64,000 bases of DNA from Whitmania pigra (lineage: Eukaryota; Annelida; Clitellata; Hirudinida; Haemopidae), in assembly GCA_021613335.1 (NCBI GenBank), contig JAJTWR010000471.1, positions 401,001-465,000 of the forward strand, read 5' to 3'. Below, in pieces: positions 12,799-44,300 of this stretch. Each line of letters begins with the position of its first letter. Position 1 is the stretch's first letter. The notes below the pieces were generated by a model. It saw only the letters and a list, made by a program, of their open reading frames with translations. It was not told the DNA's origin and made no database searches. Position numbers and translations under genes: made by a program.

Positions 12799-14690
12799 AC
12801 TAGTTGCCTTAGATGTTTCACGAGTGAAGTGATTTCAAAAAGATTCACCTGTTAAAATTAGAAGCGAACATCATATTTTATGAAATAATCGTTAAAATTG
12901 ATTGTTTAATCAATAACACTTGCTACTTGAAATGACTCATAATCTTCAACTTTTGTGTTCGAAACCTGGCTTCGTCCTCATAAAATTATCAAAAATGAAC
13001 ACATCCTACAATCCGTCCAACAGCACATCCTAGTGCCCACAAAAACTAAAAAAAAAACCAGTTAATCAACAATAAATAAATAATAAGCAATAAATAACAA
13101 ACATCCGCCAACTTTTTGCTTAAATAAATTGAAATGTTAAATCGCCTTCACTTGTAAAACCGTTCTAACTGCGAAATTGCAAAGATAGGCTAAAAGTAAT
13201 GTCAGTAGGCGAGCTTGCATTTATAAAGAGTTTATCAAGATGATGACGAAAACAAAACTTGACTGCATTTAATGAGGATTCGTTACAATTAAGTGGGATC
13301 AAGGATCTCGTTGAGTGACTCCATAATTCCTAGGAATTAATATTCATAATTAATCATAGGGGTAAATTAATTTTACATCACAAATTAAAAAATTTAATGC
13401 ATAGATTTGAATATTTTAAAAGATTTAGTAAACACTTGAGAGTTATTCCGCGATAATTAAAAGAAATGTCTCTTTAATATTCTAAGTCGAAACAGTCACC
13501 GTCATCTCCAACGTCTTTAGTACAACACAGCATGACCTTTATTGTTTTGATTTCATAAATATTATTATGCAAAGTTCTCCAATTGAACTTGCTGGGCTGT
13601 CGTTAATAACCAAACAACCTGTTTCATGATTGTGGATTCTGATATTGAAGTGTTGATCCGAGTCTTTATGTATGTATTTATTTATTTTTTATTTTTTCTT
13701 ACATCCAAATGAATTATAAGAAAATAGTTCATGAAAGCAGAGTTCTAAGGTTGACTTATCATTTTATGATAATGAGAACATAAATTGACGAATAGCAAAA
13801 TTATTATTATTTATTCTATATTAATACATATTTTATTACATAAATTTGTGATTATCTAACTAATCCAATATCTTCACTTATGATATGATCTTCGATTCAA
13901 TGAATGGCTGTTGTGTCTTTGGCAATTATACCAATCCAATCTTTGAACATAGTCTTGCAATTACGACATCCTGATTTTTATTCGCTTTTTATTGTCTGAT
14001 TGTGACATTTAGACTGAAACAGTCGAGTATTACATAATTATGTTTCAAGGCCTACATTTACTTCCTTTTAGACTGAAATTCGACCAAGATGTTGATTACG
14101 TTCCAAATAATTATTTGCATATTTTTTCGTCATTTGGATGTAGTTTAAACTATTTTAATAGCAAACGGAAGTAAATCCTTTGAAGAATTTCACAATGATA
14201 TCTTTATTGCATTAACTTTCTATGAATTTCTATGCAAACATCCAAGTGGTTTAATAAAGTCGCAATAGTCAGTGATTACCCATTTAACTGCTTGACTTTG
14301 ACTTCATCATCATCACCATCACCATCATCATGAACACTCGAGCAGAATTCAAGCATCGGTGACTTCCGCAAACGATCAAAGGTATTCGAAAATGAATCTT
14401 GAGACTTGGGTCGCTCTTAGTCGTCTCTGTTGATTATAACAAGCTGTTATTAATTCATCTATAAAGTTAATCCCTATTATTAATAATTTATTAATATTCG
14501 CTTACGCTAAAAATTAGCCTAAGTTTTGAGGTTCTTGAATTTAGGAAGTTAAGATAGGGACGATGAAGTTTAATGTGTATGTGAGAAGACTTTATGGCCT
14601 AGCCCCGGGCAGCATTTTGTGTTTGTATTGCTTTGAATAATTTAATATTATTGAGATGTGTAAAATAATTAATAATAATAAAAAATTAAT
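12799..14690. other. intergenic DNA with a short CAT/CAC repeat
   Basis: No gene is seen. A trinucleotide run (catcatcatcaccatcacc...) lies at about 14303-14331. The stretch holds the 5' flank of the surface-protein gene on one side and the start of lectin unit A on the other. Confidence 0.5.
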
Positions 14691-15090
14691 AAAAACTAAT
14701 TATCTCGCATAATAAATTCACATTCCTTGTACTTCATTGAGCAAGATGTTTTACATGTGATAAAATGTAATGTAATGTCAAAATTTGACTAACTTACGTC
14801 ACTTGATGTTCGAAAGTTTTGCCTTCTATCTTGTTTTCGAAAGAAGGTATGAGCATGTTTCGGCATTTTGGAAAAATAATAACAATGAAGCATTCCAAAT
14901 AAAATAGTGGTCGATTTCCCACGACAGCATAAATTAAAATGTGAATTTTTTTTCAAATTAAATAAAAACAGAAATGCATTTCTATCGCCAGTAGGAACAA
15001 GAGACAACAAACAATAAATAATGGTTCTGCGTTTAATATATAAATACCACATCTCAACCGCTGAGATGTTAATAAAATGAAACATTGGAT
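14690..15090 (+). promoter_or_regulatory. duplicated promoter region of lectin unit A
   Basis: This block recurs upstream of lectin copies B1 (about 26130-26571), C (about 27505-27947) and D (39905-41348, split by an element). It contains a TATA box TATATAAATA at 15037-15046, followed by an imperfect inverted repeat catctcaaccgctgagatg at 15050-15068 and the start codon at 15091. The same TATA is kept in every copy, which supports shared regulation. The transcription start is inferred to be about 30 bp after the TATA box, leaving a very short 5' UTR. Confidence 0.7.
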
Positions 15091-17964
15091 ATGATCTTCG
15101 TTTATTTCTATCTTTTTAGCTCATTGACTATTGTAGCCAATCCATCCGTGATTAGCTGGAATCCTGGAACCTTTGAATCGCAGAAAATATGTTCTGCTCA
15201 TTTGCCGCTTAAAGTCCTGGAAAACGTGACGAGTAGCCTGGAATGTGCTTTGATGTGCACAACGAATTCCATGTTCAAATGCCTGGCATTCAATTTCGTT
15301 ATATCCAGGTGCAGCTTGTTTGATTTTCTTTCCACGAGCTTCTACGTGGTCACAACGGAGAACTGCTTGTACTACCAGGTGGAAATATTCCCATTCATTT
15401 TGAAATTAATTAGATATAGTTTATTTCATTTAAAGTAATAGAACAATTTGCTTAATAATTTCATGCGATTTTCATTTTTTAAATCGATTAAATTGTATTT
15501 TGCCAGGATTCAACAAATATATTCAAAGGTAAATATTATTTTAATTTTGATCAATGCTATTGCTTTTTTGTTCAATACTTCAACAATTTCAACTACAATT
15601 CTATGTCAGACAATTTCCCCTTTTTATCATTTAAAGAGGATTTTATTTTAGATTGGTATTTTTACATTTGTATTTGCGATATCTCTTTTAAATATGTCTG
15701 AATTAAATATGTTTAAATTTGTGACAAAACATTTTCTCAGAATTGTTATTTCGCCATCTTCAATTAAAATATAAAAACTTAAAAAAAGCTGAAAGAGAGG
15801 GAAATGCACCGTAGCGTGTCAATGGTCGTAGTTGCTTTCAAACGCCACTCAAAATTTATTGTTGCTATTTATTATAATTTGTTACAGTTTATTACTGATT
15901 GCAACTTTGATAATTTATTTATAAGCTTTCGTGATGCAGATGTAAAAGTCAACATCGCCTACAACAAAGTCGTGTACCTGAGCCTATCTTACGCATTCTC
16001 CCCTCCAACAAGTAAAGTGGTGGATAATTCCAGCTCAACGGATTATTGGACGAGTTGCTGTTCAACTGGAGATGGTGGTGGTGGACCAAACTGGTTTGTC
16101 ATTGATCTGGAAGATTTCTTCAAGATTATTTATGTCCTCCTTATTAACAGAAACGTTATTGGTGAGTGAGGAAATTCATTTGATTTAGTAAAGGATGTAG
16201 ATGACCTGTGGATGTAATTGTTGATGTTGTCATCTAATATCTGCTGAATAAAATATAGAAAAATCTATATTAAATAAAGAAAAAATTAAAATATAGAAAA
16301 AATCTATATTCTGTTATTCTTTATCACTAAATTGGAACATAACCAAGAGTCCATCTATAAAGTACGTCAAGCTCGAGAGGGGAGGGGTCTAAGAAAGTGT
16401 GACAGTTTGTGACAGAGAGGGAGGTGGTTTAATCTATGTGTGACGCAAACATATTTGCAAATTTAAATAAATAAATAATAAATTTTTAAAATTTTATATT
16501 TGCAAAATGTTTCATTTTTAAAATGCTGATTCTGTATAATGTTTGGGAATGAAGCTCCGAAAATGACGGTTAGCTTTATTTCATTCAGAATGTTCACTTG
16601 TTATTTCTAAGAATGGAGAAAGGGAATTTGCATACATCATTGTATAATGAGACGTGGAATACAATCAAGTCTGATGCTAATGTATTTGAAAACGTAGGGG
16701 GTCTGAATTTTGTGACGTACATTTTAGAGGTGGGTCTGGCATTTGCGATAGTGTGTGACAAGGAGGAGGGTGTTTAAAATGGTCCAAAATAGCGTGATGT
16801 ACTTTATGGACGACCCCCAATGTATAAACAATTTTCCTATAAAAAATTCTAATGTAATAATTCTGATATCATTCATTTGAAATAAGTAATTTTTTATATA
16901 ATGAAAAACAAAAGCATCTAAAGCCAGTGCGCATTTGTGTACATTTTCTGCATTACGAGAGAACCAATTAAAAAAATCAATTAATTTTTGGTCCTCTGCT
17001 ATTTCTAAAATTAAAATTTAACTATTGAAAGATGCTTTCTCATTTTTCGATAACATTTTATTTTTAATGTGTAAGCCGATATAAAGGGGCAATAATATAA
17101 CTGCAAATTTATTAATGAATAATGTTAATATAATATAATATGAGATAGAGTACTATTACTGAATTAAAATTTAAAGTATTTGTTTTCTTTCCTGCTGAAA
17201 ACCCCACGTTTGATTTCAATCACATTTGATAATCACAAATAGTATTCTTACTAAGTTAACAATACTCTGTTGTATTTCTTATATTAATAGTAACTTTTCA
17301 GTTAAAGGTCAACTATGATCTGAACCCCCCATCCTAGAAACTGAAGATATTAATTCACATAAAGAGCTAGGTAAAAAAGAATAGCTTGGAAAAAGAAATA
17401 AATTTTTTAAAAAGTAGATTGAAAAGACACTTCATTCATTGGATGAGGCTTTTGTTGTCGATGAAAGTCAAAAGAGCACTTAAGTCTCTCCGTCTTATCC
17501 CGCTTCCAAATGATAACAATTGCACAATTGTTCTGCTGCTTTAACTCTAATTACATTTTTCATTTTACAATTGCAATTTTTCTTTTAATATTTTATTTTA
17601 TTAACTTTAATTCAAAATGCGGTAAAATTCATCGAAAGGTTTCTATGTAAACAGTTGTTGTGGGCAATGTTGAGATAATGACTATAATAATACTTATAAT
17701 AATATCTTAACAACTACGTTCTTTTCAGGAAATCGCCTCAATAATTTCATTGTCGGTCTCAGCCAAGATTTCAGCTCATCCATTGGAATCCAGAGGGGAC
17801 AGTACAAGCTCTGTGGGGTTTACCCAAGCACAACCAAGAATGGAGGCATTTTTATACAGGTGTGTCAGGATTTAACATACCTGGCCAGGTTTGTCATCCT
17901 ACAACAGTCTCTTAATAACGAGGGACTTTTTACGGTCTGTGAAGCAAAGGTTTACGCGATTTGA
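15091..17964 (+). CDS. secreted PAN + F5/8C (fucolectin-type) protein, unit A
   Basis: Four exons, 15091-15378, 15507-15528 (22-nt microexon), 15940-16161 and 17729-17964, sum to 768 nt and 255 residues with all phases closing. The product has a signal peptide (about 1-17), a PAN/Apple-like domain in exon 1 with the spaced Cys pattern (K-I-C, L-E-C-A-L-M-C, F-K-C-L-A-F-N, S-R-C-S-L-F, N-C-L-Y-Y), and a fucolectin/F5/8C domain in exons 3-4 (N-I-A-Y-N-K-V...V-V-D-N...S-C-C-S-T...N-W-F-V-I-D-L...N-R...R-L-N-N-F-I-V-G-L, ending C-E-A-K-V-Y-A-I). The His of the classical fucose-binding motif is not evident. Intron 3 (1,567 bp) holds a MITE. The gene faces the LBP/BPI pseudogene at 18529. Confidence 0.85.
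16350..16822. mobile_element. MITE in lectin A intron 3
   Basis: The left end reads gtccatctataaagtacgtc and the right end gcgtgatgtactttatggac followed by gaccccc, forming inverted termini of about 25 bp. The interior has no coding capacity and carries G-rich blocks (gaggggagggg, gggggtct). A related copy sits at the matching place in lectin C (33036-33487), and unit D is empty at this site. Confidence 0.7.
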
Positions 17965-21397: not shown

Positions 21398-22788
21398 CAG
21401 TGATGGGTAGTTACTAACTATAAGTAGTTAACTACTAGTTAATAACTACTTTAAAGTAGTTAGGAAGTAGTTAATAACTACTCTTAAAAAAGTAGTTAAA
21501 AAATAGTAGTTAACTATTTGTTGTTAATAACTACTTCAAAAATAGTTTTTTTTACGCAATACTTTTTAACTACTTTAAACAAAATTTTAAAATAAAATGA
21601 AGAAAAATATTTTATTCCAATTTTACAATTTGTTACATCACTTTATAAATACAGTTTCTTTGTTTTCAACTTTTGCTTACTTCCGCCATTTCTCGTTTCT
21701 GAATTATTACTCTTAGTAGTCGTATTCTGAAAACGTTTTATGTAAATTGCAATTTGGTTTTATATAAATTTGCGATTTTAATGCAGCTAATTTTGTCAAG
21801 GCATTTTCTTTAGTTGTTGAGAAAAACTCTGTTACTGATGACATGGACACGGATGAGCCATTATGTGATATTTCTGAAGATCTTGTTGGTGAAAGTATAG
21901 CCGATTTGATTGAAAACGAACAAGATATTGATAATGCGGATAATGTGCTTCTTTTGCCTCCTCATAAGCGCTGCGGTAATGATACCTTAAATCTTGTGGC
22001 TACTGTGGATGCAATGAAAGCAAGGGATAATCTGCAATACAAACGACTTTATGATAGATCAAAGGCAAAGGTTGCATCATTATCAAACTCAGTTCATCGC
22101 AGTGTAAAAAATGCTGAGGTTGTACAGGACATTACGGGTTCAACATTTTTAAAGCCAAAAATTACAAGGTGTCGTTAACAATCACCACCTTTGCGGACAA
22201 TGCGGCTCAGAACAGTGAATATGATGATTTATATGACTATGGAAAATGTACCAAACTCTTGTGATAATGAGGTAGCTGAACAGCTTAATGATTATTTATC
22301 AAACTCCGCAAGAAATGTACAAACCCTACTTAATTATCCAACTGTTTGTGCTGCATTCATCAAGCTTAATTCAACATTACCAAGTTCGGCAGCAGTTGAA
22401 AGACTTTTTAGTATAGCAGGGCAGGTTTTATGTAACAGACGATGTAAATTATCGGGTAATCATGTTGACATGATGATTTTTTTAAGAGATCGCCTGAAAC
22501 ATCTACTGAATACTTCTGTTTTTGATTAATTTGGACAATAAAATTTTGTTGAAAATGTTACACTAGTGTAAATAAATATGCTAATAATTATATTTTGTTC
22601 AATTGTCCAGAAAATTAATTTTATCAAATGTCAACGGAAAAGTAGTTAAAAGTAGTTAACTACTATGCAAGTAGTTAAGGAGTAGTTACTAACTACTTAT
22701 TTAAAAAGTAGTTAAAAATAGTTACTTTTTATAAAAGTAGTTGACTACAGTAGTTTACTACTTTTTAAGTAGTTAAAGCCCATCACTG
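21398..22788 (+). mobile_element. hAT transposon with 8-bp target duplication
   Basis: The termini are CAGTGATGGG...CCCATCACTG and the flanks are an exact 8-bp duplication GCAATATG (21390-21397 and 22789-22796). Both subterminal regions (about 21405-21545 and 22640-22775) are dense arrays of agtagtta / taactact, likely transposase-binding repeats. The interior encodes a damaged hAT transposase at 21843-22529, including the C-terminal dimerisation block L-P-S-S-A-A-V-E-R-L-F-S. The transposase is truncated at its N-terminus and split by a frame change near 22180, so the copy looks non-autonomous. Confidence 0.92.
21843..22529 (+). pseudogene. hAT transposase remnant
   Basis: Two open pieces (21843-22178 and 22191-22529) carry the central helical part and the hAT dimerisation domain (F-I-K-L-N-S-T-L-P-S-S-A-A-V-E-R-L-F). 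No BED zinc finger or complete catalytic core is present. The two pieces lie in different frames. Confidence 0.8.
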
Positions 22789-25035: not shown

Positions 25036-25290
25036 AGACAATGGCATCGTAGTTTCAACAAACAGTCGATTGTCATCATCCATCAGTCTTCAAACTCATT
25101 GACCAGTTTCGAAAAGAGCAAGATAAGGTGGAGATTGAGATCACACGTTTCCAGGCAGGTGAGAGAAAGCAAGAAGCATCGAAGGTTAAGTAAGTGAAAT
25201 TAAATCAAAGTCTCCGCACTCTTGTTCCAACCTACGGCAACACAGAACCTCTCGATTACATGCGCTGAATTGCTTACAATCTCACAATTT
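25035..25290 (+). pseudogene. MULE (FLYWCH-type) transposase C-terminal relic
   Basis: Translation in two frames gives a typical MULE C-terminus: W-H-R-S-F-N, then H-H-P-S-V-F-K-L-I-D-Q-F-R-K-E-Q-D, then L-R-T-L-V-P-T-Y-G-N and L-D-Y-M-R. A frameshift near 25065 and stops (TAA near 25192, TGA near 25265) disable it. It lies 90-380 bp inside a minisatellite arm (25375-25419) of the same type as the foldback element at 40193, so it probably belonged to a larger coding relative of that element. Confidence 0.6.
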
Positions 25291-25374: not shown

Positions 25375-25419
25375 TTGTTTTGTCGGGGTTGTTTTGACGG
25401 GGTTGTTTTGACGGGGTGC
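25375..25419 (+). mobile_element. right-hand arm of a foldback/MULE element
   Basis: The repeats gttttgtcggggtt / gttttgacggggtt end with gacggggtgcc, the same terminus as the foldback element at 40193-41247. The terminus sits inside lectin fragment B0 exon 1, directly before gattttctttcc, so this insertion truncated that lectin copy. Confidence 0.75.
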
Positions 25420-26124
25420 CGATTTTCTTTCCACGAGCTTCTATGTCATCACAACGGAGAACTGCTTGTATTACCAGGTGGAAATATTCCCATTCGTTTT
25501 GAAATTAATCATATTTAGTGTATTTCATTTAACGCAATTTGCATTTAAACAATTTGCTTAATAATTTCATACGATTTTCATTTTTAAATCGATTAAATTG
25601 AGTTTTTCCAGGATTCAACAAATATATTCAAAGTTAAATATTACTTTAATTTTGATCAATGCTATTGCTGTTTTGTTCAATACTTCAACTATATCAACCA
25701 CAATTCGATGTCAGACAATTTCCCCGTTTTATCTTTTAATGAGGATTTTCGTTTTAGCTGGAAATTTTACATTTATTTTGCGTTATGTCTGAATTTTATA
25801 TCTGTTTCAAAATTTTTTCTTATATTCGTTATTCATAACATATATATGCATAAGTTTAAATTTGTCATAAAAAATTTTGTAAAATTGTAAAAAAATTGTA
25901 AAAATGTAAAAACTAAAAAAAGCTGAAAGAAGGAAATGCACCGCAGCGTGTCAATGGTCATAATTGATTTCAAACGCCACTAAAAATTTATTGTTGCTAT
26001 TTATTCTAAGAAAGTGTGACAGTTTGTGACAGAGAGGGAGGGGATCAACCTATATGTGACGCAAACACATTAGAACATTTAAATAAATAAATAATATATT
26101 TTCAAAATTTTATATTTGCAAAAT
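25420..26124 (+). pseudogene. lectin fragment B0 (3' end of exon 1, exon 2)
   Basis: It begins within lectin exon 1 (equivalent of about 26796) and includes exon 2 at about 25612, whose donor is damaged (ttcaaagttaaat in place of ttcaaaggtaaat). Exons 3 and 4 are missing; the sequence jumps from intron 2 into the MITE of intron 3 (ctaagaaagtgtgacag at about 26007). Its first 200 bp are closer to copy D than to B1. It cannot make the protein. Confidence 0.8.
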
Positions 26125-26571
26125 GTTACATTAAAACTAATTATCTCGCATAATAAATTCACATTCCTTGTACTTCATTGAGCAAATGTTTTACATATGA
26201 TAAAATGTAATGTAATGTCAAAATTTGACTAACTTACGTCACTTGATGTTCGAAAGTTTTGCCTTCTATCTTGTTTTCGAAAGATGTGGCTTCAGGTATG
26301 AGCATGTTTCGGCATTTTGAAAAAAAATAACAATGTAGCATTTCAAATAAAAAAAGTCGATTTCCCCTGACAACGTATATTAAAATGTGAATTTTTTTGA
26401 ACTAAACAGAACTAAATAGAAGCAGAAATGCATCCAAAACAATAATTACAGATTTCACCGAGCAAATGTTTTCTATCGTCAGTAGGAACAAGAGACAACA
26501 AGCAAAAAATGTTTCTTCGTTTAATATATAAATATCACCTGCTGAGATGTTAATAACATGAAACATTAGAT

Positions 26572-27009
26572 ATGATCTTCATTTATTTCTGTCTTTTTTG
26601 CTCATTGACTATCGTGGCCAATCCATCCAAGATTAGCTGGAATCCTGGAATCTTTGAATCGAAGAAGATATGTTCTGCTCATTTGCCGCTCAAAGTCCTG
26701 GAAAACGTGACGAGTAGCCTGGAATGTGCTCTGATGTGCACAACGAATTCCATGTTCAAATGCCTGGCATTCAATTTCGTTACTTCCAGGTGCAGCTTGT
26801 TTGATTTTCTTTCCACGAGCTTCTACGTCGTCACAACGGAGAACTGCTTGTACTACCAGGTGGAAATATTCCCATTCATTTTGAAATTAATTATATATAG
26901 TTTATTTCATTTAAAGTAATAGAACAATTTGCTTAATAATTTCATGCGATTTTCATTTTTTAAATCGATTAAATTGTATTTTGCCAGGATTCAACAAATA
27001 TATTCAAAG
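26572..27009 (+). pseudogene. truncated lectin copy B1 (PAN exon only)
   Basis: Exon 1 (26572-26859, 96 codons) and exon 2 (26988-27009) are intact, with promoter and TATA box (about 26525-26534), but the F5/8C exons 3 and 4 are absent. Transcription would run through the MITE scrap into copy C, so exon 2 could in principle splice to C's exon 3. As it stands it would give a signal peptide plus PAN domain. It is a product of the 1,376-bp duplication. Confidence 0.8.
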
Positions 27010-27900
27010 GTAAATATTATTTTAATTTTGATCAATGCTATTGCTGTTTTGTTCAATACTTCAACTATATCAACCACAATTCGATGTCAGACAATTTCCC
27101 CGTTTTATCTTTTAATGAGGATTTTCGTTTTAGCTGGAAATTTTACATTTATTTTGCGTTATGTCTGAATTTTATATCTGTTTCAAAATTTTTTCTTATA
27201 TTCGTTATTCATAACATATATATGCATAAGTTTAAATTTGTCATAAAAAATTTTGTAAAATTGTAAAAAAATTGTAAAAATGTAAAAACTAAAAAAAGCT
27301 GAAAGAAGGAAATGCACCGCAGCGTGTCAATGGTCATAATTGATTTCAAACGCCACTAAAAATTTATTGTTGCTATTTATTCTAAGAAAGTGTGACAGTT
27401 TGTGACAGAGAGGGAGGGGATCAACCTATATGTGACGCAAACACATTAGAACATTTAAATAAATAAATAATATATTTTCAAAATTTTATATTTGCAAAAT
27501 GTTACATTAAAACTAATTATCTCGCATAATAAATTCACATTCCTTGTACTTCATTGAGCAAATGTTTTACATATGATAAAATGTAATGTAATGTCAAAAT
27601 TTGACTAACTTACGTCACTTGATGTTCGAAAGTTTTGCCTTCTATCTTGTTTTCGAAGGATGTGGCTTCAGGTATGAGCATGTTTCGGCATTTTGAAAAA
27701 AAATAACAATGTAGCATTTCAAATAAAAAAAGTCGATTTCCCCTGACAACGTATATTAAAATGTGAATTTTTTTGAACTAAACAGAACTAAATAGAAGCA
27801 GAAATGCATCCAAAACAATAATTACAGATTTCACCGAGCAAATGTTTTCTATCGTCAGTAGGAACAAGAGACAACAAGCAAAAAATGTTTCTTCGTTTAA

Positions 27901-27910
27901 TATATAAATA
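27901..27910 (+). promoter_or_regulatory. TATA box of lectin C
   Basis: TATATAAATA lies 38 bp before the start codon at 27948, in the same place as in copies A, B1 and D. Confidence 0.7.
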
Positions 27911-27947
27911 TCACCTGCTGAGATGTTAATAACATGAAACATTAGAT

Positions 27948-30900
27948 ATGATCTTCATTTATTTCTGTCTTTTTTGCTCATTGACTATCGTGGCCAATCC
28001 ATCCAAGATTAGCTGGAATCCTGGAATCTTTGAATCGAAGAAGATATGTTCTGCTCATTTGCCGCTCAAAGTCCTGGAAAACGTGACGAGTAGCCTGGAA
28101 TGTGCTCTGATGTGCACAACGAATTCCATGTTCAAATGCCTGGCATTCAATTTCGTTACTTCCAGGTGCAGCTTGTTTGATTTTCTTTCCACGAGCTTCT
28201 ACGTCGTCACAACGGAGAACTGCTTGTACTACCAGGTGGAAATATTCCCATTCATTTTGAAATTAATTATATATAGTTTATTTCATTTAAAGTAATAGAA
28301 CAATTTGCTTAATAATTTCATGCGATTTTCATTTTTTAAATCGATTAAATTGTATTTTGCCAGGATTCAACAAATATATTCAAAGGTAAATATTATTTTA
28401 ATTTTGATCAATGCTATTGCTTTTTTGTTCAATACTTCAACAATTTCAACTACAATTCTATGTTAGACAATTTCCCCGTTTTATCATTTAAAGAGGATTT
28501 TATTTTAGATTGGTATTTTTACATTTATTATGCGATATCCTTTTTAAATATGTCTGAATTAAATATGTTTAAATTTGTTACAAAAACGTTTCTCAGAATT
28601 GTTATTTCGCCATCTTCGATTAAAATATAAAAACTTAAAAAAAGCTGAAAGAGATGGAAATGCACCGTAGCGTGTCAATGGTCGTAGTTGCTTTCAAACG
28701 CCACTCAAAATTTATTGTTGCAATTTCTTATAATTTTTTACAATTTATTAATAATTGCAACGTGGATAATTTATTTATAAGCTTTCGTGATGCAGATGTA
28801 AAAGTTAACATCGCCTACAACAAAGTCGTGTACCTGAGCCTATCTTACGCATTCTCCCCTCCAACAAGTAAAGTGGTGGATAATTCCAGCTCAACGGATT
28901 ATTGGACGAGTTGCTGTTCAACTGGAGATGGTGGTGGTGGACCAAACTGGTTTGTCATTGATCTGGAAGATTTCTTCAAGATTTTTTATGTCCTCCTCCT
29001 TAACAGAAAAGATGTTGGTGAGTTAGGTAGAAGTTAATTTGATTTAGTAAAGGATTTTAATAACATAACATAACATAACAATTATTTATAGTGGTTAAGA
29101 AGACCTGGATCTGTGTAATAACTACTCTTTTTAGTCCTAATATCCGAATATACTTAAGTAAATTTTGAATTTATCTATTGTGTCAGCATGGATGGTTTCC
29201 TTATCTAGTTTATTCCATAAGGAAACCACCCTTGAACTGAAATAATTGTTTTTCAAGTTTCCCGAAGCCTTCCTGTATAATTTACAATCGTGCCCTCTAG
29301 TAGAAACACTTTTTGTGGCTTCGAAAAACTGTTCAGGCAAAAAGCCTTCCCTTCCCGATAAAATTTTGAATGCCTCGATGAGGTCCCTCTATATCTTCTC
29401 TTTTCCAGAGTCGTTAATTTACATCTATTTAATCTTTCCTCGTAACTAAGCTTTCCAAAACCATCTATCATCCTGGTTGCCCTTCTTTGTACTCTTTCCA
29501 ACATCTCTACATCCTTCCTCAAATGAGGGTTCCATACTTGCACACAGTACTCAAGGTGTGGCCTTACTAATGCCTTATACAATCTCAGTATTACATCCTT
29601 GTTCCTGCTTACTACTGTTCTCTTTATCATTCCAAGTACTCTGTTTGCTTTTTTAGCAACTTCCATGCACTGTAGAGATGCTTTTCCATTGTTCTGCATT
29701 ATTACCCCCAGATCTCTTTCCTGATTTGACTGCTTCAGAATGCTTCCTCCAAATGCATATTCGACTTTCGTGTTTTTGCATCCCATATGCATAATGGAGC
29801 ATTTGCTTACGTTGAAAAGCATCTGCCAATCTTCTGCCCATTTGAATAACTTGTTAAGATCTTCCTGAAGTGTATCTACATCTTCTTGCTTGCTGACACT
29901 TCTTGCTACTTTGGTGTCGTCAGCAAACTTGGATAACTTAGATCTTATGCCATCATCCAGATCATTTATATATATGCAGAACAGTACAGGTCCAAGCACC
30001 GATCCTTGTGGGACGCCGCTAAGTACTGGTTGCCACTCTCAATAAATTCCTCCTATGCCTACCTTCTGTCTCCTATCTATCAACCAGTTTGTAAACCAAT
30101 GTAATAGTTTGCCTTCAATCCCACATGCACCGAGCTTTTTTTGAAGCCTTTGATGGGGCACCTTGTCAAATGCTTTTGCGAAGTCTAGGTACACTACATC
30201 TACAGCCTTGTCAAGATCAACCCACTCATAAATTTCTTCAAAAAACTCAAGTAGGTTGGTAAGACACGATCTGTTCTTAGTAAAACCATGTTGGCTCTTT
30301 CCAATCACATCGTTTCTTCCAAAAAATGTTGATACAGCCTCTTTGATCATTCTTTCCATTACTTGCAAACTATAGAAGTTAAGCTTACTGGCCTGTAGTT
30401 GGATGGCAAACCCCTACTTCCCTTTTTGAATAGAGGAACTACTATTGCATCTTTCCAATCTCTTGGTATTGTTCCTGAATCAAACGATTTGACAAATAAG
30501 ATTGCCAATGCTTCTCCTATAGCTGTTCTTGTCTCATATAGTAGTTTAGGATGTAGGTTGTCTATTCCAGGGCTCTTGTCTACTTTCAAATTTTCCAGTT
30601 GCTTAATTACCCCTGTTTTTGAGAAGTTTACTGTATCTAACTTTATCTCAATCTGTTGGATTCTCCTTGGCAGTTCTGGTATATTCCCTATTGTTTCTTT
30701 AGTAAAAACTGAACTGAAGTAGCTATTTAATATATTGGCTGTTTCCTCTACTGAATCAACTGTTTGCCCCTCACTATTTTGTAATGGTCCAATTTTGTCC
30801 CTTACTTTTTGTTTACATCTAACGTATCTGAAAAAGCTCTTGCTATCGCTTTTAACATTCTTTGCTAGTTTGTTCTCATATTCTAGTAATGCTTTTTTAT

Positions 30901-33900
30901 TAATTCTGTTTGATGCATTCCTTTGTTTCTGATATTTTTGTTTTAAATCCTTAAGCTCTCTTTCCTCTTCCTCTCCAGATTTTATTTTTGTCATTTCTAG
31001 TAATTTCTTCCATGCTTTATACTTAGCTCTTTTGCATTTGATGACCTCCTTCGTAAGCCATGGCTGTCTTTTCTGAGTTCTGCCTCTGCTTGGGATATAT
31101 TTATCTACAACTAGATTTAGCTCTTTCTTGATTATTGTCCAAGCTTCTTCTACATTAGCAGATTCTATTTTTTTAGCTAGGTTTGTTTTCTCTAACTCAT
31201 TCCGTATTTTATCATAGTCAGCCTTAAAAAAGTTTTTAGAATCTAGGTTCTCTTTTTTTAAATCCTCGTTGTCTAAATAAATGTTCCATCTGACAACTTG
31301 ATGATCACTTGTTCCAAAGTGTTCACCAACTGTTAGGCCTTCCACTAAGTTCTCATCTGTTGTTAATATCAAATCTAATGTGTTTTTAACTCTTGTGGGA
31401 TCAGTGATGTGCTGGAATAAGAAGTTATCATTTGTTACATTTATAAAGTTTATATCCTCAGGTCTTTCTCCTTCTAAAGTGTTCCAGTTAATATGGTAGT
31501 TAAAGTCACCCATTACTAGCATAAATTCCTTACTGGCTTTGTATAATATCTCATTTAGTCCAGTATCCTCTTTAAAATTTGGTGGCCTGTAGCAAACCCC
31601 TAAAAGAAGTTTGAATTTACCTATGTAAATATCACACCATAAACTCTCTTTAAAGTTTTCATTTTGAAATTCCTTTCTTTCTATTACTTTGATATAATTC
31701 TTAATATAAATTAATACCCCTCCTGCTCCATGTCCATTTTCTTTCTGTCCCTCTCTGTCTTTCCTTAACATCTCATAGCCATCAATTGCTAGCTCAGAGT
31801 TTTGAATACTTTCTTTTGCCCAAGACTCAGTAATGCCAATTATATCTGGCTCCTCCGTATCGACAATTAGCTCGAGTTCTGTCCTTTTAGTCTTACTAAC
31901 TATACTTCTAGCATTGGCATAAACACATTTCAGAACTCTTACTCTGTCTATATCCTTACTTAAATGATTAATTTCTAATCTTACCTCCTCCTCAGCTTTT
32001 CCAGCTTCATGTTGCCTGGTTGGCCCTTCACTCTGAAAATGTAGTCCCCCGACTGATCTTCAGCTTGCTTTTTCTTCGCCTCTTCCAACAATTTCTTGCA
32101 TTGCTCTCTTTCTGCTTTAGTCAAATCATGGCAGACAGAGATGTCTTTGAATTTGCTTTCTGCAGTTCGTAATTTTGGAAGTGATTCCAAAACTAGGTTC
32201 TTTGATTCTCTTTCCCTAAATTGAATCATTAGTGGCCTTACCTCCTTTGTATCCTTACCTATCCTGAATACACTTTTGATGTCACCACTATCACATTTTA
32301 CACCAAGTACATTGTTGATGAAATGCATAGCAGTGTCTCTATCCTCAGTTTTCTGTTCTGGCTCACTTTTAGCTTTGCTTTCTTCGAGCCTGTACAGTAT
32401 AATGTTGTTCCTTCTCTTTTCTCTTTCGACTTCCTCCTGAGCAATGGTTTTTGCTGTACTGATTTTTTTGTCCACAACTTGTACTCTGTCTTCAATTGTT
32501 TTCAATTTTGCATCTACTCTTTTCTTTACAATTTCTGTCCATGCAAGACCCTTGCTTTTAGTACCAGCTTCGGCTGTCATGTCAGCCTCGACTGAGACAA
32601 GTAAGCTCTCTACTTTCTCCTCCAGCTTTGAAACTTTATTTTCCACAAGATCTCCTCCTACTTTGCCGCTTTCTATAGTCTCCAACTTTTTTTCGAACAA
32701 CTCGATTTTGTGACTTTGTTCCTTATTGATACCTATGAGTTGTTCGAGTCTTTCGACGACGTCTTTCATTCGCACACAGTTCTTGCAAATTTGGTTTAGA
32801 TTCAAACCCTCGACACTTCCATACATTTCGCATTCTTGGCATTTTTTAAAATCTTTAAAACTTCTCGTAGTCATTTTAGCGAAACTTTCACTAGAGCGAT
32901 AATACGTAATCAAGTTGATCAATCAATTTTGATGACGTATGGATGTAATTGTTGATTTGGTTCTCTAATATTTGCCGGGTAAAATCTAGAAAAAATCTAT
33001 ATTTTATTATTTTTTTACCACTAAATTGGAACATAAGGGTTCATCCATAAAGTATGTCACGCTTGAGAGGGGAGGGGGTCTAAGAAAGTGTGACAGTTTG
33101 TGGCAGAGAGGGAGGTGGTTTAACCTATGTGTGACTTATAAATTAGAAATTTTAACAAAACAGATAATAAATTTTTAAAATTTAAATTGTTAGATTTTTA
33201 AAGTGCTGTATAATGTTTGGGAATGAAGCTCCGAAAATCACTATTAGCTTTGTTTCAGTCAGATCTTTCGCTCAGTATTTCTTACAATGGAGAAAGGGAA
33301 TTTGTATACATCATTGTATATTGAGATATGGAATACAATCAATTCCGATAATAATGTATTTATAAAAGTGGGGGGTTTGAGTATTGTGACGTACTTTTTA
33401 GAGGTGACATTTGTGACAGAGTGTGACAAGGGGGAAGGGGTTTAAAATGGTCCAAAATAGCTTGGCGTACTTTATTGACGGCCCCCAGATTATAAACAAT
33501 AATTGTCTTTTAACAAATTCTTATGTAATATTACCGATATCATCCATTAAAAATAATTTTTTTTTATATAATGAAAAACAAAAGCATCTAAAGCCAGTGC
33601 ACATTTGTGTACATTTTCTGCATTGTGAGAGAACCCATTAAAAAATCAATTAATTCTTGGTCTTCTGCTATTTCAAAAAATCAACCCATGAAAGTTGCTT
33701 TCTCATTTATCGATAAAATTTTATTTTAATATGTAAAGCTATATAAAGGGGCAATAATATAACTGCATAATTAATAATAAATAAATTTAATGTAAAATAA
33801 TAACATAGCATAACATAACATAACATAACATAACATAACAGTTATAATTATTTTTATAATATTTAATTTTTTATCTTTAATTCAAAATGCGGTAAAACTC

Positions 33901-35044: not shown

Positions 35045-35855
35045 CCTATATATATTTGGCGCATTGTATGTTGAAGGCGTAACGAATCACTTGCAAATCT
35101 GGGCATCATTTCAGCAAATTAATAAATGTCGCCACAGTCAGCCTCTACGAGTTGTAATTGTAATTGTAACTTCATTTATATAGCGCCATATGCATAGCGT
35201 CAGAGGCGCTTCTTGTAACCATTTATATAGCGCTCCTCCCCAAGAGCGCTGGCGGCAGTGCAGGCTGGGTTTCGAACACGACACATTACGACTGTTGCCA
35301 TTACCGCCGTATACAGGCACGTAACCCATTCGGCTAACCTGCACGCCGAATATGTTAAAATGAAAATAGTTCCTAAAATATGTGATTTGAAATAATAAAT
35401 TATGTACAAATCAAGTCAAATCGACATTTACTTTCTGGTCGTCTGGTAAATCGTTTCGATTAATCAGGGTTCTCGTTCCTTTCGAAACTAAAATCCTTCC
35501 GTAGGATGAGAGGGAATCCTCCGAAATCAGGAAGGACACCATTTCATTACCTGGTTCCACGTCCATTTCGGGCTTTGTTTAAAAATTTGAAAAATTGTTT
35601 TTATTTTGCAACATATTACTGTAGTTGTTGTTACTGAATAAAATTTAAACATGGTTTAAAAATAACACAAAAAGTAAAGTCTTGTCTGAGGATTTTGGAA
35701 AGCCTCTCTGGGGTACATTCCCCCAAAAGCCGTTACGACGTGACTTGTTTCAATGTAACCATCTTTGATCTGAGGATGAGCTGTTAACCTGTAATCAAAA
35801 TAAAAATTTCTCGTCAGAGTAACGTCGACAACAAGAGTGGAAAGCTCCTAGTTTC
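35045..35855 (-). pseudogene. LBP/BPI-family pseudogene, unit C
   Basis: Remains of three exons: the last exon with about 280 bp deleted (the sequence jumps from ttgaaggcgtaacg to aatcacttgcaaatctg at about 35080), an intact-looking 141-nt exon at 35432-35572, and part of the next exon from 35686 to about 35850. The GC splice donor used in units A and D is mutated (cttgtctgag), a SINE is inserted at about 35155-35344, and the 5' half is gone, replaced by a Gypsy fragment. It cannot encode the protein. Confidence 0.85.
35155..35344 (-). mobile_element. tRNA-derived SINE, copy 2
   Basis: The 87-nt tRNA-like head (35344-35258, minus) again has the perfect GTGCAGG/CCTGCAC pairing; the tail at 35151-35170 is (TTACAA)n on the minus strand. 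It interrupts the intron-exon region of the unit C LBP/BPI pseudogene. Units A and D lack it. Confidence 0.8.
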
Positions 35856-37369: not shown

Positions 37370-38650
37370 ACTATAACATAACATAACAATTATTTATAGT
37401 GGTTAAGAAGACCTGGATCTTTGTAATAACCATTCTTTTTAGTCCTAATAACAGAATTTACTTGAGCACATTTTAAATTTATCTACTGTGTCCGCATGGA
37501 TGATTTTCTTATCTAGTTTATTCCATAAGGAAACCACCCTTGAACTGAAATAATTGTTTTTCAAGTTTCCCGAAGCCTTCCTACATAATTTCTAATAGTG
37601 CCCTCTAATAAAAGCACTTTTTGTGGCTTCGAAAAACTGTTCAGGCAAAAGGCCTTCCCTTCCTGATAAATTTTTGAATGCCTCGATGAGGTCCCCTCTA
37701 TTTCTTCTCTTTTCCAGAGTCTTTCATCGTAACTCAGCTTTCCAAAATCTTCTATCATACTGGTTGCCCTTCTTACTCTTTCCAACATTTCTACATCCTT
37801 TCTCAAATAAGGGTTCCACACTTGCACGCAGTACTCAAGGTGTGGCCTTACTAATGCCTTATACAATCTGAGTATTACATTCTTGTTCCTACTCACTACT
37901 GTTCTCTTTATCACTCCAAGTACTCTGTTTGCTTTTTTAGCAACTTCCATGCACTGTAGAGATGCTTTTCCATTGTTCTGCATTATTACCCCCAGATCTC
38001 TTTCATGATTAGACTGCTTCAGAATGCTTCCTCCAAATATATATTCAACTTTCGTGTTTTTGCATCCCATATGCATAAGGGAGCATTTGCCTACGTTGAA
38101 AAGCATCTTCCAATCTTCTGCCCATTTGAGTAAATTGTTAAGATCTTCCTGAAGTGTATCTACATCTTCTTGCTTGCTGACACTTTTTGCTACTTTGGTG
38201 TCGCCAGCAAACTTGGATAACTTTTTTCTTATGCAATCATCCAGATCATTTATATACATGCAGAACAGCACAGGTTCAAGCACCGATCTTTGTGGGACGC
38301 CGCTAAGCACTGGTTGCCACTCTCAATATTTCCTCCCATTCATACCTTCTGTCTCCTACCTGTCAAGCAGTTTGTAAACCAATGTAATAGTTTGCATTCA
38401 ATCCCACATGCACTGAACTTTTTTTGAAGCCTTTGGTGGGGCACCTTATCAAATGCTTTTGCGAAGTCTAGGTACAATACATCTACAGCCTTGTCATTAT
38501 CAATTCACTCATCCACTCATATATTTCTTCAAAAGAAAATGTTGGTAAGACACGATCTGTTCTTATAAAACCATGTTGGCTCTTCCCAATCACTTCGTTT
38601 CTTACAAAAAAAGTAGATACAACCTTTTTGATCATTCTTTCCATTACCAT
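37370..38650 (-). mobile_element. CR1-like non-LTR retrotransposon, 5'-truncated copy
   Basis: The RT C-terminal two thirds and 3' end closely match the copy at 29-30.4 kb, including the same TGTTA tail (37374-37390 on the minus strand) and the same TGA before E-W-Q-P. The element is cut at about 38650, upstream of the RT block M-E-R-M-I. Frame breaks occur near 38310 and 37760. Confidence 0.85.
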
Positions 38651-39894: not shown

Positions 39895-40192
39895 TAGTAA
39901 TCGGTTTGAAAACAAACGCATTAATACGCGCCTCTATTTTAATTCAATAAAAACGTAACGACCACATAAGCGGCGGCAGATCTTGGCATGATACACGTAA
40001 ATTTCCGTATTTGTTTTCGTAAAAAAGGTATCCGCGGGCAGAATGAAAGGGCCTCAAGGACATAATTCGGCATTTTGAAAAAAAAAATATACAACATTGT
40101 AAAATTCCAAGTAAAAAAGTATTTTTTCGAATTAAATAGAAACAGAAATGCATCCAAAATAAGAATTACTTATGGTTTCTATCGTCAGTAGG

Positions 40193-41247
40193 GGTGACCC
40201 GTCATAACAGCCCGGCGACAGAATAGCCCCGACAAAACAGCTCCGTCAAAATAGCACGGCGTCAAAATAGCTCAAGACAAAACAGCCCCGACAAAACCGC
40301 CCCGACAAAACAGCCCGGCAAAACAGCCCGGCGTCAAAATAGCCCAGGACGGAAAAATCCCGTCAAAATGGCCCCGTCAAAATAGCCCCGACAAAATAGC
40401 CCGGCGACAACATAGCCCAGGACAAAACAACCCGGCGACATAACAGCCCCGTCAAAATAGCCCCATGATAACTCCATGTCAAAGTATTTTTTAAAAATGT
40501 TGTGAAACTGAATCAAAATTTAATTCGAAATTAGTGGCTTGAATGCTTTGATCGTTTTGAGTATTGTTTGTTGTTATTATTGTTCTCCAGAAGTTTAATT
40601 TGCATAGTCTTCCTTATTCAAATTTGTATCTGGCTTACAAATTTGTGTTGACATTATCCTGATCACAAGTTGCTTGTGAGGGGTCGTTTTCAAAATTGAA
40701 ATACGTTTTGAACAGATTAAGAAATTTTCTGAACCAGTCAATTCTACGATCATTCATGCTGATGTCTTGTGAGAAAGACTCTTTTCCAAGAATCAATAAC
40801 AATGAAATCATTGATGTTTTAGCATCGACTAGTGAAACGATGAAAAAGCTGTTATAATAGTTAATAGTGAATAGAAATTTTAGACTCTAGTGTTTCTTAT
40901 GTTTAAGTTGATCAAAGTAGGAGTTAAATAAATGTTCCCGGGCCGGTTTTTTAAGCCAGTCCGACCCTGGTGACAGGGCTGTTTTGACGGGGCTATTTTG
41001 TCGCCGGGTTGTTTTGTCCTGGGCTATTTTGTCGTCGGGCTATTTTGTCGGGGCTATTTTGACGGGGCCATTTTGACGGGATTTTCCCGTCCTGGGCTAT
41101 TTTGACGCCGGGCTGTTTCGACGGGGCTGTTTTGTCGGGGCGGTTTTGTCGGGGCTGTTTTGTCTTGAGCTATTTTGACGCCGGGCTGTTTTGACGGGGC
41201 TGTTTTGTCGGGGCTATTCTGTCGATGGGCTGTTATGACGGGGTGCC
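40193..41247. mobile_element. foldback-type element with about 270-bp minisatellite inverted repeats
   Basis: The two arms, 40193 to about 40465 and about 40970-41247, are inverted copies built from short units of the type cccgtcaaaatag / ccccgacaaaacag, in the same order in both arms. Termini read ggtgacccgtcataacagcc and, reversed, ggcaccccgtcataacagcc. The flanks GTCAGTAGG at 40184-40192 and 41248-41256 form a perfect 9-bp target duplication, and the undisturbed site exists in the other lectin promoters (for example about 26475). The 500-bp centre has no long frame. The layout and the 9-bp duplication fit foldback elements of the MuDR group. It splits the unit D promoter region. Confidence 0.93.
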
Positions 41248-41294
41248 GTCAGTAGGAACAAGAGACAACAAACAAAAACTGGTTCTGCGTTTAA

Positions 41295-41326
41295 TATATA
41301 AATACCACATCTCAGCTGCTGAGATG
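41295..41326 (+). promoter_or_regulatory. TATA box and perfect palindrome of lectin D
   Basis: TATATAAATA (41295-41304) is followed by CATCTCAGC-T-GCTGAGATG (41308-41326), a perfect 9-bp inverted repeat with one central base, 22 bp before the start codon. Copy A has the same palindrome with one mismatch pair; B1 and C keep only the right half (ctgctgagatg). It could be a factor-binding site or a start-site element. Confidence 0.6.
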
Positions 41327-41348
41327 TCAATAACATCAAACATTAGAT

Positions 41349-44300
41349 ATGATCTTCATTTATTTCTGTCTTTTTTGCTCATTGACTATCGTGGCAAATC
41401 CATCCAAGATTAGCTGGAATCCTGGAATCTTTGAATCGAAGAAGATATGTTCTGCTCATTTACCGCTCAAAGTCCTGGAAAATGTGACGAGTAGCCTGGA
41501 ATGTGCTCTGATGTGCACAACGAATTCCATGTTCAAATGCCTGGCATTCAATTTCGTTACTTCCAGGTGCAGCTTGTTTGATTTTCTTTCCACGAGCTTC
41601 TACGTCGTCACAACGGAGAACTGCTTGTACTACCAGGTGGAAATATTCCTATTCGTTTTGATATTAATCATATTTAGTGTATTTCATTTAACGCACTTTG
41701 CATTTAAACAATTTGCTTAATAATTTCATACGATTTTAATTTTGTAAATCGATTAAATTGTGTTTTGCCAGGATTCCACAAATATATTCAAAGGTAAATA
41801 TTATTTTAATTTTGATCAATGCTATTGCTTTTTTGTTCAGTACTTCAACAATTTCAACTACAATTCTACAATGTCAGACAATTTTCCCGTTTTATCATTT
41901 AAAGAGGATTTTATTTCAGACTGGTATTTTTACATTTATTATGCGATATCTCCTTTAAATATGTCTAATTTTTAAATTTGTGACAAAAAATTTTCTTATA
42001 ATTTTTATTTTGCAATCGTCGATTAAAATGTAAAAATTAAAAAAAGCTGAGAGAGAGAAATGCACCGTAGGGTGTCAATGGTCGTAGTTGCTTTCAAACG
42101 CCACTCAAAATTTATTGTTGCTATTTTTTTATAATTTTTTACAATTTATTAATAATTGCAACGTGGATAATTTATTTATAAGCTTTCGTGATGCAGATGT
42201 AAAAGTTAACATCGCCTACAACAAAGTCGTGTACCTGAGCCGAACTTACGCATTCTCCCCTCCAACCAGTAAAGTGGTGGATAATTCCAGCTCAACGGAT
42301 TATTGGACGAGTTGCTGTTCAACTGGAGATGGTGGTGGTGGACCAAACTGGTTTGTCATCGATTTGGCAAATTTCTTCAAGATTTTTTATGTCCTCCTCC
42401 TTAACAGAAACGATCTTGGTGAGTAAGGATAAAATTCATTTGATTTAGTAAAGAATGTAAATGAAGAGTGAATGTTTGTTTTGACGTTTGGATATAATTG
42501 TTGATGTTGTCCTTTGATACATGTTGAGTTCAAATTAGAAAATATCGAGCTTCTATTACGCTATATAAGTTGCATACCAAGTTAGGGACGGCATTTTGAA
42601 TGAGTACCTAAAATTTAAAAATTTTAAAAATGGCCGCCCCTTTTTTTCAGTTTTCTGCTGGAAGTCCATTGAAGGATCAGATTTCAGTTTGACATTGGGT
42701 ATAATTCATCTATTGATGTACGAGCCATGAAAGAAAATCACCTTATTAATTTCTTAAAACGTCACTTCATTTTAACCCAAGACCAGATTTTATATTTTAT
42801 TCGTGAGCAGTCTGAAGCTTCCATTTTGTATTTTTCAAAACCTTTGACTTTTCAAAGAAGGTACCGTAATGAAGAAAGTGAATGAAAGCGCGGCGTTATT
42901 CCGTAGAAAGAGGCAGAGCAATAGAGTTTATTGAATAGACGAATTCAAAAAACTCTGCTCTGAAATGTGTATAAGCATGAAGCGTCAAATCCGCAAAGAG
43001 AAACGAATCGATGTAAAGTATTGGCTGACACATCGCTGGGATTTGACGCTGAATTGAGACGGAAATGCTGTGTCATCGACAGGTTGACTGAGGAAATATC
43101 TGTCAGATTTCAGCAAAGTCATGTTCTTACAAACAAATATGCTTTTCTCATGCTGTGAAACCTGTTTGATGATAATTATGATTGTCAGCTTGGCATAGTC
43201 GGTGAAGACATAGAAAAAGAAGAGTTCTTTGCCAAAAGGAAGAGATTGAAGTATTTTATAGAAACGATAACATCGATGGACCCCTTCAACTTTTGATCTT
43301 CCTAACCCAGGCTTTACCCAGTGCTGATAGTTGTGAGCGTTCATTCTCCAAACTTAACTTAATAAAAAAGTACCATCAATCATCTAGGAGCCAGGAATGA
43401 CTGACAGACTTGGCAGTCCTCTCAGAGAGAGAAATTGACGATGGACTGAATTTTGAAACTGTTATATAGAAAAACCTCAAAAACTGGTTGTAAATTTTCA
43501 TTTGATTGTAGTTCCAGGAGAATAAACAATTGAGAGCTTTACGAAATTTTGAAGGTTAACGTATTATTAAAGGCCATGAGGAGGGGAGAGAGCGGCAAAT
43601 CTTGTGACCGCCCCTGGCGATAAGAACACTTAGTACGCCATTGCTCTATATCACTAAATTGGGAGATAACCTAAACATATAAACAATTGTCCTGTAGCAA
43701 ATTTTTGTACTTAATATTACATTAATCATGTAGTTAATAAATAAACAAATTATTATGTGTCATTACCGATATTATTCATTGGAATTAAATAAATTTTTTA
43801 TATAATGAAAAACAAAAGCATCTAAAGCCAGTGCACATTTGAGTACATTTTCTGCATTGTGAGAGAACCCATCAAAAATTCAATTAATTTTCGTTCTGCT
43901 ATTTCAAGCATTAAAATTTAACCCTTAAAAGAAATTCTGTTATTTTTCAATAAAATTTTATTTAATTATATTTTTTATTAATTGATATAAAGTGGCAATA
44001 ATATAACAGCATAATTATTAATAAATAACGTTAATATTATATAATATAACATGAGAGTACTCAATTGCTGAATTAAAATTTAAAATATTTTGCTTTCCTT
44101 CTGAAAACCCCACGTTTGAGTTCAATCATGTTTGATAATCACAAATAGTATTTTTACTAATTTATCATTACTGTATTTTATTTCTTACATTAATAGTAAC
44201 ATTTCAAATAAGGGTCGAATCTGAACCCCCATGCCAGAAAATGAAGATATTAATTGAAGAATTAATAAAAAAAAAAGCTAGGCCGAAAACAATAGCTCGG

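Follow-up and report, generated by a model that had tools for sequence, protein, structure and literature searches.

The FB elements of Drosophila have a foldback anatomy built on tandem units. The published family nearest to the element described here is Tm1 of the root-knot nematodes (Meloidogyne), which belongs to the Phantom subclass of Mutator/Foldback elements and has units of 13-15 bp, arms that are 93% alike, MITE-like forms and a Phantom-type transposase; 8-10 bp target duplications flank 45 of its 53 complete elements (PMC3169594). Muta1 of the mosquito Aedes aegypti has more than 300 non-autonomous derivatives, and its transposase mobilises such derivatives in yeast; Muta5, which is similar in build, showed no movement in the same assay (PMC5225508). 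In other foldback families the transposase differs or was not found: the arms of Galileo contain repeated binding sites for a different transposase (PMC3688188), and for Tetris, which shares foldback anatomy, tandem units and 8-10 bp duplications with the element below, no transposase was found (PMC4079207). As for hosts, a 2019 survey of MULEs gives flatworms, crustaceans, arthropods, tunicates and an ichnovirus for Phantom, with no annelid, and gives annelids for Rehavkus and one other group (PMC6446971); Tm1 adds nematodes to the Phantom hosts (PMC3169594). The element that we describe comes from a leech, Whitmania pigra, and is built much like Tm1 and Muta1.

The window, by which we mean the whole stretch of 64,000 bp of leech DNA that was analysed, contains a non-coding foldback element of 1,055 bp at positions 40193-41247 (Table 1), in which long, internally tandem-repeated inverted arms surround a short centre. 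The initial annotation had proposed this anatomy, with ordered arms of about 15-bp units, a non-coding centre of about 500 bp and a perfect 9-bp target duplication, and each of these features holds; the duplication GTCAGTAGG is flush with both ends of the element. The arms are about 270 bp each and are complementary, as inverted blocks, at 95% over 150 nt and at 96% over 119 nt. Their units are of the GWCAAAAYAGCCCC type with GG/GGC or AG spacers, and unit length is identical between the arms at 16 of the 18 positions (our script gave 17 segments per arm, and the count of 18 follows from splitting one 31-bp and one 29-bp segment in two by eye). A further period of 73 bp, in keeping with five units, is also present in the array. 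At their outermost bases the two ends are unequal, reading inward as GGTGACCC on the left and GGCACCCC on the right. The element contains no stop-to-stop frame of 110 amino acids or longer, and this copy itself encodes no transposase. When it was folded computationally as a single strand of RNA, 261 of the 272 left-arm bases paired with the right arm, and the energy was -640 kcal/mol compared to a mean of -294 kcal/mol for 10 mononucleotide shuffles.

Table 1. Coordinates, in the window, of the foldback element and of a transposase relic that shares its end.
Feature	Position	Strand	Remark
Target site duplication, left, GTCAGTAGG	40184..40192	+	Site occurs once in the paralogs
Left arm: 18 units of 14-16 bp, beginning after the terminus GGTGACCCGTCATAACAG	40193..40464	+	
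Centre, non-coding, 506 bp	40465..40970	+	
Right arm: repeats the left arm in inverted orientation, with its 18 units in the same order	40971..41247	-	
Terminus of the right arm (position given for the whole arm), GGCACCCCGTCATAACAG when read on the minus strand	40971..41247	-	
Target site duplication, right, GTCAGTAGG	41248..41256	+	
Transposase relic: residues 378-458 of the L068 ORF, 77% identity, internal stops	25047..25289	+	C380:426047-426289
Right terminus GACGGGGTGCC of the transposase relic, the same as the foldback end, together with arm units	25375..25421	+	

The sequence GTCAGTAGG has five matches in the window, where 0.19 are expected. One of these, at 13201, has flanks unrelated to the insertion site. 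The unfilled site is present as an exact single copy at the paralogous positions 26478 and 27854, and as a single but altered copy at 14.9-15.0 kb and near 21.0 kb. The flanks of the element, once joined, match the paralogous gene copies at 27.8 kb (90% over 980 bp), 14.9 kb (88% over 977 bp) and 26.4 kb (85% over 991 bp), and match the sequence at about 21.0 kb for 96 bp only. An empty site in the sister genes, as previously noted for this locus, is therefore seen in three paralogous gene copies and one 96-bp fragment, with the site once in each (two of them exact). About 100 bp downstream of the insertion point, the ATG at 41349 opens a frame that encodes a match to the PAN domain (24.3 bits, cut-off 21.4), and on reading the sequence we noticed a TATA-like TATATAAATA some 48 bp past the insertion point.

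The window also contains a tandem family of PAN-domain genes (14948-15890, 25421-27381, 27785-28746 and 41247-42147), whose stretches are 82-90% alike. The PAN domain is in the first frame, and a further frame is weakly similar to F5/8 type C, below the cut-off. By eye, we identified two non-LTR retrotransposon-like copies with endonuclease and reverse transcriptase frames on the minus strand (29253-32922 and 37561-38322), frames resembling the end of a hAT transposase on the plus strand (21768-22529), and a gypsy-like integrase fragment near 35823.

Related sequences are numerous in the rest of the genome. Searches of 178 Mb in 381 contigs gave 587 matches to the left end (28-base pattern, up to two mismatches), 1,007 to the right end (21-base pattern, up to two mismatches) and 274 to the centre (31-base pattern, up to three mismatches), the two end counts being on different scales because the right-end pattern is shorter. 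Reversed patterns, used as controls for the left end, the right end and the centre, gave 0 matches each. That ends outnumber centres suggests that the ends are shared by other forms, with broken copies and relics adding to the number; for example, one other end-sharing form (L073:33-474) is 442 bp long and has a 10-bp duplication, found by eye. From the exact ends among those listed, 74 left and 89 right ends were compared and formed 51 left-right pairs, 40 of which span 900-1199 bp. Contigs C3, C16, C18, C23, C60, C66, C71, C74, C77 and C80 were omitted from the pairing for left ends, and C17, C30, C33, C36, C43, C51 and C66 for right ends; C66 has one further pair, of 448 bp.

Target duplications were examined in 40 copies, comprising the window copy and one from each of 39 fetched loci. 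Both ends are exact in 37 of them (the others, L018, L036 and L042, lack an exact end or run into N). An exact duplication of 8-10 bp flanks 32 of these 37 copies, with lengths of 9 bp (24 copies), 10 bp (6 copies) and 8 bp (2 copies). Copies with 9-bp duplications elsewhere in the genome, on whose existence the foldback claim depended, are thus present. In shuffled right flanks, repeats of at least 8 bp occurred in a mean of 0.86 of the 37 copies, approximately the level produced by chance self-pairing alone. Five copies have no exact duplication: two of these are off by a single base, and the other three (L013, L024 and L029) have no trace of one with both ends intact and are possibly products of recombination between copies. 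No marked consensus emerges from the 9-bp duplications; their first base tends slightly to G (11 of 24) and their second to T (12 of 24). One of them, the GTCGCCGGG of L016, has arm-like flanks, so this copy is probably nested in another copy.

To compare arms we used 32 copies, having omitted the 8 of the 39 loci whose best alignment does not span the element (L018, L034, L036 and L042-L046). The nearest arm is one on the same side, left with left or right with right, in 63 of 64 cases, and the partner arm of the same element is the nearest neighbour in only one. The left-arm and right-arm consensuses differ by 4.4%, with their units in register. We looked for continuing homogenisation of the two arms inside each element and saw no sign of it: the mean difference is 5.6% between the arms of a single element and 5.7% between those of different elements, and no exchange between the arms of an element since the spread is visible in the 32 copies. 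Centres diverge by a mean of 1.7% between these copies and by 1.0% from their consensus, a value that applies to the closest set and not to the whole family because the scored copies (40 of 1,275 candidates) were chosen by their likeness to the window copy. Arm length varies among copies, often in steps of about one unit.

These relationships bear on whether the arms could be two minisatellites that expanded independently in opposite orientations beside a coincidental 9-bp repeat. That the arms are tandem arrays is what such a history would leave, but it is refuted by the shared unit order, the flush duplication, the unfilled sister sites and the hundreds of copies, and the check for independent microsatellite expansion gave the same answer, same-side arms being nearest in nearly every case and the consensuses lying in register. 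We give this explanation practically no credence. The simplest reading of the alignments is that the whole arm was duplicated in inverted orientation before the present copies spread. The arms would have arisen either by one inverted duplication of the whole array or by interior loss between two matching arrays, and single units would have been gained or lost later.

A candidate transposase comes from the same genome, in which we found 20 places with a MULE domain, two of them with four or more arm units within about 1.5 kb. One of the loci, L068 (3110-5780 on contig C283), has an ORF of 458 amino acids with a FLYWCH finger at residues 4-59 (28.5 bits, cut-off 23.6) and a Pfam MULE domain at residues 181-270 (38.2 bits, cut-off 27.6); an N-terminal finger of this kind together with MULE is the mark of Phantom. 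The two cysteines and HxH pair of the finger are present on reading, and the DDE residues (D184, D245 and E374) and a CxxH motif (C266 and H269) align with those of relatives. The canonical left end is absent from L068 and the right end is changed. Another locus, L069 (C20), has stops inside, and its left end is within 2 mismatches in 28 of the foldback end; the two loci differ at 48 first, 30 second and 65 third codon positions (about 325 sites each). When the whole genome was searched with the L068 protein, all 88 candidates were scored and 67 pieces matched; the only full-length matches besides C283 were on C183 and C359, at 31% and 32% identity. That search found no full ORF with more than 35% identity apart from the one on C283, and we found no copy with an intact transposase plus both intact ends.

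The transposase sequences are tied to the foldback element by its units and ends. We inspected the 3' ends of 15 transposase copies (12 fetched copies, L068, L069 and the relic in the window). Beyond the 3' end, at least one unit was detected by pattern in 9 of the 15, in some cases one alone, and unit remnants were seen by eye in three more (L080, L081 and L083, the first two being duplicates of each other); L074, L079 and L085 have none at that position. The exact right end GACGGGGTGCC is present in 3 of the 15, namely L075, L078 and the window relic. Outside the arms, the sole link between the foldback element and the transposase copies is a 58-column match, identical in 49 columns, between bases 42-94 of the foldback centre and the L068 sequence immediately interior to its left arm. 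The relic has both transposase sequence and a foldback-type end, and therefore ties the two together inside the window itself. The 3' end of this relic is flush against a PAN-gene copy that starts mid-exon at about 25422, so the family probably inserted here a second time, into the coding region of a sister gene, and this insertion then lost its left side.

Transposons have acquired long arms with internal repeats on more than one occasion (PMC3688188, PMC3169594), so a foldback element from another superfamily, like Galileo of the P superfamily, could in principle look like this one without being related to it. However, the units and ends adjoin MULE transposase sequences in several places, and duplications of 9 bp predominate, and we regard a mere look-alike as exceedingly unlikely. 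The duplications, mostly 9 bp within the 8-11 bp typical of the group, and the linkage of a MULE/DDE transposase through units and ends are those of the MULE superfamily. The original placement of the element in the MuDR group is thus supported by more than 9-bp duplications, namely by FLYWCH+MULE transposase sequences bordered by these units and ends.

Database searches with the L068 protein found 129 relatives at E <= 0.001, of which at least 73 have both FLYWCH and MULE (counted among the 120 listed). Among those listed, the named relatives include Parnassius (58% identity), Microcaecilia (57%), Physella (52%) and Thelohanellus (51%), with Ixodes, Rotaria and Photinus more distant. Relatives so scattered and yet 50-60% identical could reflect horizontal transfer, or else foreign sequence mixed into some of the records. 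One exact 21-base end pattern had no match in the viral collection. A host protein of 947 amino acids encoded in the window gave 13 hits, among them three from the leech Helobdella robusta at 46-49% identity, which rank below four others at 99%, 75%, 59% and 58%.

Within the MULEs, the main competitor to Phantom is Rehavkus, a MULE-like group with a PHD finger, 9-bp duplications, inverted repeats of 26-400 bp and a minisatellite (PMC6446971). The equal duplication length, the arm size class and the presence of annelids among its hosts (PMC6446971) would all suit it, but the transposase linked to the leech element has FLYWCH and Pfam MULE, its only matches at E <= 1, with no PHD finger, and the five relatives that we checked all have the same FLYWCH and MULE pair. 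We therefore consider Rehavkus very unlikely. The data support narrowing the MuDR assignment to a MULE family of the Phantom type, of which the element is the non-autonomous foldback form, the Phantom type being assigned by the domain pair FLYWCH and MULE, as the named relatives carry no Phantom label.

Overall, we are highly confident that the element is a non-autonomous foldback transposon with hundreds of related copies, likely moved by a Phantom-type MULE transposase that acts on its ends. It would have descended from a fuller, transposase-bearing element. By analogy with the arms of Galileo, the 14-bp units may be repeated binding sites, in this case for the FLYWCH domain, and the arms would bring both ends together within one transposase complex; the element would then be cut out and pasted in through a staggered cut of 9 bp. 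A more specific scenario, which we think improbable, is that the foldback swarm outlived its autonomous element and that its hundreds of members are still mobilised, or were until recently mobilised, in trans by the stranded transposase gene on C283, which, having lost its own ends, could no longer move and would be turning into a captive host gene.

Comparison with Tm1 (PMC3169594) brings out both shared and distinct features. Both families have composite inverted repeats of about 14-bp units, unequal outer end motifs, duplications of 8-10 bp that are mostly 9 bp, short non-autonomous forms, and a FLYWCH+MULE transposase (496 amino acids in Tm1 and 458 here), and the arms of one element differ to a similar degree (6.85% in Tm1 and 5.6% here). 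In contrast, the unit is CGATTCAGTATCCGC in Tm1 and GWCAAAAYAGCCCC in the leech, and the end motifs, compared by reading, are CGGTTAA / CCTACCC in Tm1 and GGTGACC / GGCACCC here. The analysis of Tm1 covered 61 elements, compared to 274 centre matches here, and Tm1 is described as senescent, whereas the divergence of centres from the consensus (1.0%) marks the 32 copies in our comparison as young. With Muta1 (PMC5225508) the leech family shares a MULE transposase with a FLYWCH finger and DDE triad, duplications (8-9 bp in Muta1), inverted repeats made of tandem units (12 bp in Muta1) and abundant non-autonomous derivatives, but the arms of Muta1 are shorter (145 bp, 9 units) and intact autonomous copies of it are known, whereas we found none with intact ends. 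A FLYWCH+MULE transposase, 8-10 bp duplications and variable, at times foldback-like ends are features of Phantom in general (PMC3169594, PMC6446971).

Our literature search for leeches combined with Mutator/MULE, or with foldback, found no paper, and the terms FLYWCH, foldback, tandem repeat, minisatellite, MITE and Phantom are all absent from the text of a 2026 paper on arthropod MULEs. The family extends Phantom-type foldback elements to an annelid, and does so with a linkage between foldback element and transposase at the sequence level, which is absent for some foldback families such as Tetris (PMC4079207). The family numbers hundreds of copies, and those that we compared are young with matching arms, which makes it a good set for studying the role of the units in recognition by the transposase, and the same set of copies is suited to asking how an arm duplicates as a whole. 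At the locus itself, a foldback insertion lies just upstream of one gene of a tandem family whose sister genes are unfilled, so that any effect on expression could be gauged against natural controls.
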